DNA from: Sulfurospirillum halorespirans DSM 13726
GTDB taxonomy: Bacteria; Campylobacterota; Campylobacteria; Campylobacterales; Sulfurospirillaceae
Direction: 5' to 3'
DNA length: 64,000 nucleotides
Assembly: GCF_001723605.1 (NCBI RefSeq)
Contig: NZ_CP017111.1
Coordinates: 372,001-436,000 of the forward strand
The translations under genes were made by a program, and so were the position numbers. Shown in pieces: positions 27,911 through 32,505 of the stretch. Position 1 is the stretch's first letter; the number at the start of each line of letters is the position of its first letter. The notes beneath the pieces are model-generated. The model was not told the origin of the DNA and did no database searches. It worked only from the letters and a program-made list of their open reading frames with translations.

Positions 27911-28419
27911 TGTTAGAAAAACTATTTGAGAGAGGGTTGTGGTCAACACGACTGATGACCCTCTCAGCGGTAATCTTTAGTATTGTAGCAGCCTTTGCAC
28001 TCTTCTTTTTAGCCAGTGCAGATTTGTATCATGCGGCTATTTCAACGTATCAGTATTTTTTTATGGGAATACACCCTGAAAATTTCCATGCAGATCTTGT
28101 AGCTGAAATAATTGGTGCCGTTGATCTTTATCTCATTGCGCTTGTTCTTTTGATTTTTGGATTTGGTATTTATGAGTTGTTCATCTCCGACATTGACGTC
28201 GCTAAAGATGCCGGTGGTGACAAAGTGCTTTATGTAAGCTCCTTGGATGAGCTTAAAGACAAAATTGCAAAAGTTATTGTTATGGTATTGATTGTTAACT
28301 TTTTTCAACGTGTCCTTCACACAGAGTATAAAGGTGCATTAGAAATGCTCTATTTTGCGTTTTCTATTTTAGCACTCTCATTAGGACTCTATTTTTTACA
28401 TAAAGGTGGAAAACACTGA
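27910..28419 (+). CDS. YqhA/UPF0114 family membrane protein
   Basis: A 169-residue inner-membrane protein with about four hydrophobic helices ([74 protein letters not shown]), the pattern of UPF0114/YqhA proteins. Function is unknown for the family. It overlaps asd by one base and hemE by one base, so it is part of an asd-yqhA-hemE transcription unit. Confidence 0.82.
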
Positions 28420-29441
28420 TGATTTTTGTTGATGCGTGTTTTGGTAAAAAAACACCCTATACACCTGTATGGATGATGCGCCAAGCAGGGCGTTATTTGC
28501 CTGAGTATATGAAAGTAAGAGCCCAAGCAGGAGACTTTTTACGTTTATGTAAAGACCCTGAAAAAGCCTGTGAAGTCACGCTTCAACCGGTTGATATCTT
28601 AGGTGTGGACGCGGCTATTTTATTTAGTGATATTTTAGTTGTACCTCTTGAAATGGGCATGGAACTTCAGTTTTTAAAAGGCGAAGGTCCTGTGTTTTCA
28701 CACCCAATTACCAATCAAGCAGATTTGGATAAACTCAGCGTTGAAAAAGCGATTGATGGCTTAGAATACGTTTATGAGACGATTAAATTGATTCGTGGAA
28801 AACTGGCTGCCGATAAAGCGCTGATTGGTTTTTGTGGTGCTCCTTGGACACTTGCGACCTATATGATCGAAGGGCAAGGCACTAAGACCTACGCTCTTGT
28901 GAAAAAAATGATCTATTCTAATCCGCAGTTTATGCACGCCCTTTTGAAAAAAGTGACCGAAGTGCTTAAGGGTTATATGGAGCGCCAGATTCAAAGTGGT
29001 GCGAATGTCGTGATGATCTTTGATTCATGGGCAGCAGCGCTCGAAGAGAGTGCGTATTTTGAATTTAGTTGGTCGTATATGAAAGAGATTAGTGCCTATT
29101 TAAAATCAAAATATCCGCACGTTCCTGTCATTTTATTCCCAAAAGGCATTAGCGGATACTTGGATAAAATCGATGGTGAATTTGATGTGTTTGGTGTGGA
29201 TTGGTCAACGCCAATTGAACTAGCCAAAGCAAAATTGGGAGGCAAATATGTCCTTCAAGGCAATATGGAACCCACGCGTCTTTACAGCAAAGAGGCGATT
29301 GATGAGGGTATTGAGCATATCGTCAATGTTATGAAAAACGAGAGACATATCTTTAACTTAGGTCATGGCATCTTGCCTGATATTCCTGTCGAGCATGCCA
29401 AATACTTCATTAAACAAGTCCAAACTCGCACCAAAATCTAA
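28419..29441 (+). CDS. hemE: Uroporphyrinogen decarboxylase
   Basis: A 340-residue enzyme that removes the four acetate carboxyls of uroporphyrinogen III to give coproporphyrinogen III in heme synthesis. The two family signatures are [15 protein letters not shown] and [22 protein letters not shown]; the catalytic aspartate is in [11 protein letters not shown]. Length is normal. A radical SAM gene follows 53 bases downstream, the same pair as Campylobacter Cj1243-Cj1244. Confidence 0.96.
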
Positions 29442-29494
29442 TCATTCTGTGCTAGGAAAATCCTAGCACACTCTTTACATGTAAAGGATTTCCC

Positions 29495-30406
29495 ATCAGT
29501 CACATTATCTTTGGACCCATTACCTCAAGGCGTTTTGGGCAATCCCTTGGCATAGACCTTAGCCCATCCTCCAAACAGTGCAATTTTGACTGCCTTTACT
29601 GCGAACTTAAAGGGGCAAAAACGGTGAATAAAGTGAGCGATGCACCTTTAGTCAAAGAAGTGCTAGATGCGCTTAATGAGGCATTGGCAAAACATCAAAA
29701 TTTGGATGTTATTACGCTGACGGCGAATGGTGAGCCGACACTTTATCCTGAACTTGATGCCTTGGTTGATGGTATCGTAAAGATCAAAAAAGAGACTAAA
29801 CTGCTGATTCTTTCCAATGGCGCAACCATTAAAGATCCTTCCATCCAAGAAATTCTTTCAAAACTAGACATCGTCAAACTTTCTTTAGATTGTGTGAGTC
29901 CTAAATGCTTTAAAAAGCTTGATCGCGCGCATCAAGGCATTGAGATTATTCAGATTATCGAAGGCATGAAAAGCTTTAGAAAACGTTATGTGGGCGAATT
30001 GGTCATCGAGATTTTAGTCGTTGAAGGCTTAAATGACACCGAGGAAGAGTTTAAAGCTCTAAGCGCCGTTTTGCATGACATCAAACCCGATCGCATCGAT
30101 GTTAGCACGATTGATCGTCCGCCTGCTTACGAGGTGAAAGGGGTGAGTATTGAGCGGTTGGTAGCGCTTTCAAGCTTTCTGGAAGGCTTACATGTAAACA
30201 TCGCTTATAAGAAAAATTACATACCGCAAAAGCGTCATTTTAGTCGTGAAGAGATACTCGAACTTCTCAAGCGCAGACCGCAAAGTTTTGAAGATATAGC
30301 TCTGTGTTTTGATGCACAAAGCCTTGAAAATCTCAACCGTCTGGTCGAAGAAAAGCGTTTACATGTAAAGAATATTGCAGGGGTGAGTTTTTATAAAGTA
30401 CTCTAG
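29495..30406 (+). CDS. Radical SAM protein with apparent ATC start
   Basis: The coding frame clearly includes SHIIFGPITSRRFGQSLGID and the iron-sulfur motif CNFDCLYC (CX3CX2C) encoded near 29579-29602, which lie upstream of the first GTG at 29624. Between the in-frame TAG at 29453 and 29624 there is no ATG, GTG or TTG. The family usually begins M-S-H-x-I-F-G-P, which puts initiation at ATC 29495, with AAAGGA (29483-29488) six bases upstream. From ATC the protein has 303 residues. It belongs to the Fe-S protein radical SAM family found next to hemE in Campylobacter; its substrate is not known. Confidence 0.8.
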   Translation: MSHIIFGPITSRRFGQSLGIDLSPSSKQCNFDCLYCELKGAKTVNKVSDAPLVKEVLDALNEALAKHQNLDVITLTANGEPTLYPELDALVDGIVKIKKETKLLILSNGATIKDPSIQEILSKLDIVKLSLDCVSPKCFKKLDRAHQGIEIIQIIEGMKSFRKRYVGELVIEILVVEGLNDTEEEFKALSAVLHDIKPDRIDVSTIDRPPAYEVKGVSIERLVALSSFLEGLHVNIAYKKNYIPQKRHFSREEILELLKRRPQSFEDIALCFDAQSLENLNRLVEEKRLHVKNIAGVSFYKVL

Positions 30407-30424
30407 TGGGCGAAACCGCCCACT
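30405..30424. terminator. Bidirectional hairpin AGTGGGCG/CGCCCACT
   Basis: A perfect eight-base G+C-rich stem with loop AAAC overlaps the radical SAM stop codon and lies six bases before the stop of the leftward TRAP permease gene. Being symmetric and between convergent genes it can act in both directions, although no T run is present on either side. Confidence 0.6.
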
Positions 30425-30429
30425 ATGAA

Positions 30430-32505
30430 TTACGCCAGTGCTAACTGCTGTTTTTTGTATTTAACTCTTTGTCCAAAATAGATAAATCCATATATCACAA
30501 GACCAATCGCATAAGAGACGTAGTGACTTGGCAATCCAAGTTTTGCCTCCATAATCTTTGGCAACATCAAGAATGGAATGACAACAATCAAACCGATACG
30601 CTCAATCGTATTGATCTTCGTTAAAACAAAACTTTGCGTGGCTGAGGTGAAGGCAAACATACCCAACACTGCGCCACCAAAAATAAGGGCAATTTCAAAC
30701 GGATTGGTGATCCACTGCCATTTAGACGCGTCGTTTGGATCTTCTGGATCGACACCGCCAATGAGCAGAAGTTCATTATTAAAGAAGAACATAAACGGCA
30801 AGATGCCTGTTCGTATATCGTAAATAAACGACTGAATACCCGTAATGATAGGATCACTCTTCGCAATCGCTGCCGAAGCATACGCTGCCATGCCTACAGG
30901 AGGCGTGTCATCGGCTAAGATACCAAAGTAGAAAACAAACATGTGTGCTGCAATCGTTGGAATCAAATACCCATTACTTGCTGCCAAATCCATAATAATT
31001 GGTGCGGTTAACGCTGCCATAACGATGTAGTTTGCGGTGGTTGGAAGCCCCATACCAAGAACCAATGAGACAAAAGCAGTCAGGAAAAGAACGGCTAAGA
31101 TGTACCCACCTGAGAGATTATCAATCACTTCTGCTAGAACCAAACCAATACCAGTGAGTGTCACAGAACCCACGATGATACCTGCAACTGCCGTAGCAAC
31201 GGCAATGGAAACCATATTTCTACCACCCATCACCATACCATTTCCAATGTCAGCAAAACCTTCAAGGATAATGGGGAGCGTTATTTTTTCTTTATTCAAA
31301 AATGCTTTAAAAGGTTTTTGAACGACCATGATGATCATCAAAAACATAATGGCACTAAAGGCAGCACTTTGTGCGGATTGTCGTAGCACAATGAGTGTGT
31401 AAATCAAGAAAAAGATCGGAATAAGATAGTGAATCCCTCGGATAAAAATAGGCCATGTGCGTCCTAGGACACTGGGGTCTTCACCTTTAAGACCGTGTTT
31501 TTTAGCTTCTAAGTGAACGATGTAAAACAGTGCGGCATAACATGTAAAGGCAGGAATAAAGGCTGCAAAAACAATATCCGTATAATCAAGCCCTAAAAAT
31601 TCTGCCATAATAAACGCAGCAGCACCCATAATTGGAGGCATCAATTGACCATTAACAGAAGCTGCTGTCTCAACGGCTGCGGCTTTGTGTGCGCTAAAAC
31701 CGAGGCGTTTCATGAGTGGAATCGTAAACGTACCCACGGTGACGGTATTGGCGATGGATGAGCCTGAGATCATACCAAACATACCCGAAGCTGCAACGGC
31801 TGCTTTGGCGGGTCCGCCATCGTATTTACCCAAAATAGTATAAGAGACTTTGATGAAGTATTCACCCGCTCCTGCTTTGTCAAGAAGTGAGCCAAAAAGA
31901 ACAAATAAAAAGACAAAACTTGCACTAACGCCCAGTGGAACACCAAAAATTCCCTCTGTTGTGAGTACCATTTGCCCCATAATTTTATTGATACTCGCAC
32001 CTTTGTGCGCAATCATATCGGGAAGATAAGGGCCAAAATAGTCGTACAGCAAAAAGACAACCGCCGCAAGCATCAATGGCAGACCCATAACCCTTCGCGA
32101 TGCTTCAAGGACAACCAAAACCGTTGCAATACCAACGATAATGTCGGTTTGTGTCCAAGCACCTGAACGCATTGCAAGGTCTTTGTAGGCATACCATTGG
32201 TATAAAACTGCCGCAACGCCCACGATCATAATGGCAAAATCATACCATGTGATCGTTGATCTTAGTTTTGGGCTTTTACTGATAGCATGCATCGCAAATG
32301 CAAGGGCGATACCAAAGGCTAAGTGAATCGCTCTAACATGAGCGCTGTTGCCTGGATCGATGACAATGTAAAGTTGGTATAAAGACCAACAAAAAGCAAT
32401 GCTTGCTACAAACCAGTATTGCCATGTAGTGCTTTCAAAATCTCTATGACCTTCAAATTCGCTGATGAGTTTCGCATCATCCAGTCGTTCTTCAAGTGTT
32501 TTCAC
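30430..32505 (-). CDS. TRAP transporter fused permease (TAXI type)
   Basis: A 691-residue inner-membrane protein in which the small (DctQ-like) and large (DctM-like) TRAP subunits are fused, as is usual for TAXI transporters. It has about 15-17 hydrophobic segments. Diagnostic stretches are GASGMFGMISGSSIANTVTVGTFTIPLMKRLGFS, SVNGQLMPPIMGAAAF and LGMGLPTTANYIVMAAL. It takes up an organic acid or amino acid driven by an ion gradient together with the binding protein encoded just upstream (32578-33531). The start is GTG at 32505. A hairpin lies between the two genes. Confidence 0.92.
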   Translation of the reverse strand: MKTLEERLDDAKLISEFEGHRDFESTTWQYWFVASIAFCWSLYQLYIVIDPGNSAHVRAIHLAFGIALAFAMHAISKSPKLRSTITWYDFAIMIVGVAAVLYQWYAYKDLAMRSGAWTQTDIIVGIATVLVVLEASRRVMGLPLMLAAVVFLLYDYFGPYLPDMIAHKGASINKIMGQMVLTTEGIFGVPLGVSASFVFLFVLFGSLLDKAGAGEYFIKVSYTILGKYDGGPAKAAVAASGMFGMISGSSIANTVTVGTFTIPLMKRLGFSAHKAAAVETAASVNGQLMPPIMGAAAFIMAEFLGLDYTDIVFAAFIPAFTCYAALFYIVHLEAKKHGLKGEDPSVLGRTWPIFIRGIHYLIPIFFLIYTLIVLRQSAQSAAFSAIMFLMIIMVVQKPFKAFLNKEKITLPIILEGFADIGNGMVMGGRNMVSIAVATAVAGIIVGSVTLTGIGLVLAEVIDNLSGGYILAVLFLTAFVSLVLGMGLPTTANYIVMAALTAPIIMDLAASNGYLIPTIAAHMFVFYFGILADDTPPVGMAAYASAAIAKSDPIITGIQSFIYDIRTGILPFMFFFNNELLLIGGVDPEDPNDASKWQWITNPFEIALIFGGAVLGMFAFTSATQSFVLTKINTIERIGLIVVIPFLMLPKIMEAKLGLPSHYVSYAIGLVIYGFIYFGQRVKYKKQQLALA

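Follow-up and report, generated by a model that had tools for sequence, protein, structure and literature searches.

The window analysed here is a stretch of 64,000 nucleotides, corresponding to positions 372001–436000 of the one-contig genome G000 (3,029,840 bases), and the genes and leader elements described in it lie on the forward strand. Within it, hemE (28419–29441), which encodes uroporphyrinogen decarboxylase as judged from its matches to TIGR01464 (429 bits, cut-off 302.95) and PF01208, is followed by a gene for a radical SAM protein (29495–30406; 303 codons plus a stop). The same neighbour is found elsewhere, as hemE lies immediately 5' of the radical SAM gene in 67 of the 83 loci examined (a count that excludes ten duplicate loci). 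The comparison across the genus and the onset of the coding pattern, both described below, indicate that the radical SAM gene begins at an ATC codon (29495–29497).

The reading frame and its product

The frame of the radical SAM gene is open from an in-frame TAG at 29453–29455 to the stop ending at 30406. A preliminary description of this DNA had noted that the frame contains no ATG, GTG or TTG from the stop at 29453 as far as a GTG at 29624–29626, and that this first canonical start codon is already past the CX3CX2C cluster motif; the reading frame confirms both points, with the motif (CNFDCLYC) at 29579–29602 and its cysteines at codons 29, 33 and 36 counted from the ATC. In our reading the GTG is not the real start: the open reading frame list offers only a 260-residue product from this codon, which lacks the cluster motif, so a caller restricted to ATG, GTG and TTG loses the cluster-binding end of the protein, and this gene and similar ones are likely to be misannotated. 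The codon at 29495 itself translates as isoleucine and not methionine, and the N terminus that had been expected (M-S-H-x-I-F-G-P) presumes initiation there. Among the 335 coding frames conserved between positions 1–436000 of G000 and 1–393999 of G004 (about one seventh of the genome), the first canonical start comes latest in the radical SAM gene, at codon 57 after the stop, with runners-up at codons 51, 47 and 37.

The product is a member of the radical SAM superfamily: it matches PF04055 (57.7 bits, cut-off 29.5), carries the CX3CX2C and glycine-rich GEP motifs, and its structure model (pLDDT 88.5, pTM 0.81) has the core fold. Both the CX3CX2C motif, with its three cysteines, and the NGEP motif, which are shared with the superfamily, are invariant across 38 aligned rows. 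Compared with known folds, the model matches the PFL-activating enzyme, NifB, TYW1, RlmN and viperin (Z 18.2–20.5, best chain each), which should be taken as indicating fold and not function. None of the best 25 of 30 NCBIfam families reached its cut-off (TYW1, TIGR03972, 41.5 bits against 317.95; prokaryotic viperin, NF038283, 56.8 against 180; MoaA, TIGR02666, 54.6 against 284.05), and a sequence search of the PDB returned viperin-like chains and one NifB-like chain at E-values of only 4e-5 to 0.007. What sets the protein apart within the superfamily is a helical C-terminal piece that the fold matches scarcely cover; residues 251–302 are modelled as three helices followed by two strands, an arrangement that we read as winged-helix-like. 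We assume that the protein belongs to COG0731 and that HP0117 or Cj1244 is its orthologue. For HP0117, one study reports a two-hybrid contact with ApbC (PMC8144621). The radical SAM gene itself was absent from the excerpts of the matches listed for literature on non-canonical, ATC/ATT or Sulfurospirillum starts.

The start codon across the genus

Full-length orthologues were found in 23 of the 24 genus genomes; none was found in the remaining one, G012, which is 78% complete. At the codon aligned with 29495, eleven of these orthologues have ATC (L001, L003, L005, L006, L009, L010, L011, L018, L019, L022 and L024), four have ATT (L016, L020, L021 and L023), seven have ATG (L007, L008, L012–L015 and L017) and one has GTG (L004), with neither ATA nor CTG present among the 23. 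Among the carriers of ATC or ATT are the one-contig assemblies G004, G006, G010 and G011, Sulfurospirillum sp. SCADC (L067) and S. diekertiae JPD-1 (L095, a complete genome); across the carriers, protein identity to the product of the window falls as low as 64%. The preliminary description had placed the start at the ATC, with AAAGGA at a normal distance upstream, and had offered a single base change or a sequencing error as the plain alternative. The genus comparison gives good support to the former and refutes the latter, since the same class of codon is common to 15 of the 23 orthologues, L095 and L067 included; we assign a sequencing error or a one-off mutation a negligible probability. 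It had also proposed looking for ATG in all near relatives, a check that, run on the genus, returned ATG in just 7 of 23 and so does not refute the ATC start.

The distribution of substitutions marks the place where coding begins. When the 15 ATC/ATT loci are compared in pairs, the rates per site at which codon positions 1, 2 and 3 differ are 0.45, 0.33 and 0.38 in the 24 nucleotides upstream of the start, 0, 0 and 0.42 in the start codon, and 0.09, 0.07 and 0.52 in the 27 nucleotides that follow it. The coding signature of substitutions thus switches on at the ATC/ATT codon, and the three-cysteine stretch that a gene caller would lose is, from the aligned sequences, under purifying selection.

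If the isoleucine were internal, translation would have to arrive from an upstream non-canonical codon, by readthrough or through a frameshift. Between the preceding in-frame stop and the cluster motif, 11 of the 15 ATC/ATT loci have no ATG, GTG or TTG; the other four carry a misplaced in-frame TTG, which in L022 falls inside the conserved stretch and in L003, L005 and L020 lies 13–14 codons upstream, where it could be counted in favour of such an origin, as could a start-stop (ATG-TAA) located just upstream in many genus loci. However, the substitutions upstream show no codon pattern, the upstream frame shifts relative to the start in L004, L007 and L021, and in four ATC/ATT loci (L019, L022, L023 and L024) the Shine-Dalgarno sequence is overlapped by a stop in the same frame that leaves room for just three codons ahead of the start, which together make an upstream origin very improbable. 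The start-stop is missing from L004, L008, L022 and L024 and occurs in varying frames elsewhere; combined with a frameshift, it was rejected on this frame variation, on these absences and on the non-coding substitution pattern. On these comparisons, the AUC at 29495 is almost certainly the real start of the gene.

In the surrounding order, 175 genomes have a match to the radical SAM protein, of which 130 were read; L103 and L104 were dropped because the motif was not found. The loci outside the genus number 161 (156 distinct sequences, with ten duplicate loci excluded), and 159 of them have a canonical start, located 4–16 codons before the GP motif in 157 and represented by an ATG at 20–21 codons in two more. 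In the remaining two, L208 (G053) lacks a canonical start around the N-terminus and carries an ATT after AAGGA, and L156 (G068, a draft) is missing a canonical start and is apparently shifted by one base with respect to related loci. Each of these is a single genome, and whether they count against the ATC/ATT start as a genus-only trait is undecided.

To follow the codon through the genus, we used a tree of 37 of the 93 protein rows from which the start residue was left out (an earlier tree held 81 rows and included it). The isoleucine-type start changes six times on this tree, compared with a mean of 12 when the states are shuffled, and none of 500 shuffles gave a number as low. Forcing the 15 ATC/ATT loci into one clade was rejected (p-AU 0.0017). 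All of the deep genus lineages, L019–L024, start with ATC or ATT. Of the seven ATG members, five group together, and L031, from a sister genus and with ATG, is placed among the deep lineages. The simplest story would be an early gain of ATC/ATT in the genus, followed by reversions to ATG and, once, to GTG. We read the non-canonical codon as long established in the genus and not as an accident.

The same history bears on whether the codon does anything at all. With ATG in 7 and GTG in 1 of the 23 genus members at the same place, the ATC/ATT codon is dispensable on some lineages, and the canonical codons on several branches, together with at least six state changes, are what would be seen if little enzyme were needed and a weak start had arisen and drifted as a nearly neutral, functionless variant. 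Against such tolerated drift, ATG is a single base away from ATC or ATT, yet ATC/ATT is found in 15 of 23 genomes, with identities to the protein of the window down to 64%. In addition, the gene bodies of the 23 orthologues contain 653 isoleucine codons (149 ATC, 383 ATT and 121 ATA), while the 15 isoleucine-type starts comprise 11 ATC, 4 ATT and no ATA, nor is CTG found there; as the genomes are related, we treat the absence of ATA from the start as a hint only and give it no probability. Drift is, in our view, a possible but unlikely account.

The leader and a putative brake on translation

The spacer between hemE and the radical SAM gene measures 50–54 nucleotides in all 23 genus loci. Among 17 other loci of the family, the two genes overlap by 4 nucleotides in eight and by 1 in one, and are separated by 2–6 nucleotides in four, 49–58 in three and 265 in one. 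Within the spacer, folds of the window and of the 23 genus sequences predict a strong hairpin (hairpin I, 29448–29470; 10 pairs and a loop of 3) in every genus locus, with stem sequences that differ between lineages; this persistence rests on single-sequence folds, as a MAFFT alignment of 12 leaders failed to place the hairpins correctly and was left unused. The 54 nucleotides before the start fold better than shuffled sequences in 23 of 23 loci (z −2.3 to −5.5, 100 shuffles each). As a plain terminator hairpin I was rejected, being absent from the terminator-like sites, of which the sole one listed is at 29037. Across 28300–30500, an Rfam search at a permissive threshold gave a single match (Trp_leader, 30153–30244, 20.4 bits, below the gathering score of 41), and promoter-like sites numbered 5, compared with 5.1 in shuffles.

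A second predicted hairpin (hairpin II, 29472–29487) includes most of the Shine-Dalgarno sequence AAAGGA (29483–29488) in its 3' arm. The predicted mean unpaired probability of this site is 0.26 in the window and 0.08–0.52 across the genus; outside the genus it is 0.29 in L031 and 0.70–0.99 in L032–L035, L039 and L047, and no Shine-Dalgarno site was found in L036. The site is also predicted to be paired in the ATG members L012–L015 and L017 (0.08–0.23 unpaired), so hairpin II is not tied to ATC/ATT. The distance between the Shine-Dalgarno sequence and the start is 6 nucleotides in 15 of 15 ATC/ATT loci and 6 or 7 in the eight ATG/GTG loci.

We suggest that these elements would act together. 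A ribosome would reach the AUC at 29495 by way of the Shine-Dalgarno sequence 6 nucleotides upstream and would initiate there weakly, as AUC and AUU codons do; hairpin II, by pairing the Shine-Dalgarno sequence, would add a second restraint on translation, and the spacer would separate the gene from hemE, with the joint effect that little enzyme would be made. The sequence comparison supports the place of the start, its conservation, the geometry and the predicted hairpins. Weak initiation is expected from the known behaviour of such codons and of IF3, given the presence of infC and of a tRNA of the ordinary initiator type; a low level of the enzyme would follow, and that low level may bring a benefit. 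Our preferred reading, one that we hold to be quite probable, is a real AUC/AUU start that contributes to a layered brake on the translation of the radical SAM enzyme; that the AUC codon in particular serves as a brake is somewhat less certain, if still reasonably likely. The low expression that the preliminary description had raised fits this picture and gains from the hairpin predicted to pair the Shine-Dalgarno sequence. Read from the sequences, the start appears genuine and conserved and is likely a brake, and it would probably both hold the enzyme low and hide the true beginning of the gene from gene-finding programs.

Non-canonical starts of this type have precedents. The pcnB gene of E. 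coli, which encodes an RNA-related enzyme, has an AUU start, its protein being unrelated to the radical SAM gene product. According to one report (PMC5472188), infC, which encodes IF3, starts with ATT in E. coli and with ATC in Streptomyces, and the GTC start of Streptomyces sigR is repressed by IF3. The infC gene and the radical SAM gene are alike in an ATC/ATT start that is kept across related species and preceded by a Shine-Dalgarno sequence at normal distance, but infC encodes IF3 itself and closes a feedback loop, whereas the radical SAM gene encodes an enzyme. The likeness in kind to sigR is that both genes stand outside the initiation machinery and that the non-canonical start of sigR keeps its product low. 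They differ in the codon, and for sigR experiments established both the repression by IF3 and its necessity, whereas for the radical SAM gene the comparison is one of sequences. With no usable canonical start, a conserved codon and a Shine-Dalgarno sequence at the usual distance, the radical SAM gene appears to belong to the infC and sigR kind. Genes with non-canonical starts discriminated by IF3 are a kind already known, if thinly documented, to which it would add a member.

A role of IF3 beyond the expected weak initiation is a separate matter. Control through IF3 had been raised as a possibility in the preliminary description. Sensitivity of the AUC to IF3 is expected by analogy, and a regulatory switch would go further, with IF3 deliberately repressing the start and the enzyme rising when IF3 is scarce, as for infC and sigR. 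Such a switch would draw on the repression of non-canonical starts by IF3 in E. coli and Streptomyces (PMC5472188), on the presence of infC and of an ordinary initiator-type tRNA, and on the long retention of ATC/ATT in the genus. We find no sign here, however, that the supply of IF3 varies or matters, and 8 of the 23 genus members do without ATC/ATT. The infC of the genus, moreover, has TTG as its start codon in all 24 loci read (the pattern used admitted only codons ending in TG, and TTG was found in every locus), so a feedback of the infC type is not visible there. A deliberate switch therefore strikes us as doubtful. An unusual initiator tRNA was likewise considered as the cause and rejected: the standard stem-loop GGGCTCATAACCC is present in 22 of the 24 genus genomes, the L325 copy is classed as tRNA-Met(cat), and the stem-loop was not found in G012 (78% complete) or G013. 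The genus supplies one leader in naturally occurring ATC, ATT, GTG and ATG forms, well suited to a direct test of the purpose of such codons.

Other candidate starts and an iterated palindrome

Tracing the other late starts among the 335 conserved frames led to two further candidates. Outside the window, a tsaB-like gene (G000:C1:287423-287878; L251:7423-7878, L273) matches TIGR03725 with an E-value of 8e-7 and 29.2 bits, below the cut-off of 69.3. An ATA that overlaps the TAA stop of the preceding gene occupies its expected start in all 21 genus loci read. In 15 of these the first 20 codons include no canonical one, and at this ATA the codon pattern passes from the frame of the upstream gene to the tsaB-like frame. 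In other genera of the family the ATA was recovered by pattern in 11 of 12 loci and by reading in the twelfth (L308); because a canonical codon falls among the first 20 in nine of these 11, the start is less sure outside the genus. In further families such an ATA was recovered by pattern in 3 of 16 loci, one with an upstream TTG, and it was also seen in L309.

A weaker candidate, also outside the window, is an mzaB-like ATPase gene (G000:C1:58060-59625, L239; NF041932, 201.8 bits, below 850), which has no canonical start before codon 51 and an ATA at codon 21 (G000:C1:58120) after GAGG; its conservation says little, because the DNA is 94% identical to that of G004 even upstream. The AUC/AUU start of the radical SAM gene, the AUA of the tsaB-like gene across the family and perhaps the mzaB-like AUA could represent a hidden set of IF3-discriminated genes in Sulfurospirillum and its family, jointly tuned by initiation fidelity and misread by gene callers, a speculative idea that we consider improbable. 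Separately, a conserved frame at G000:C1:263179-263685 (L250), outside the window and fliH-like by eye, has its first canonical start only at codon 33, which may reflect an odd start, a frameshift or another cause.

One copy of an iterated palindrome, TTTACATGTAAA, lies at 29474–29485 in the leader of the radical SAM gene. We take this 12-bp element to resemble the cyanobacterial HIP1, and nothing on it appeared among the literature matches listed. The window contains nine exact copies of it, together with 21 sites of TTACATGTAA against 0.14 expected (for example at 29475, 30188 and 30359). In G000 as a whole, TTTACATGTAAA is highly iterated, with 785 copies compared with 1 for the reversed control, and across the 24 genus genomes its number ranges from 14 (G009) to 792 (G011).
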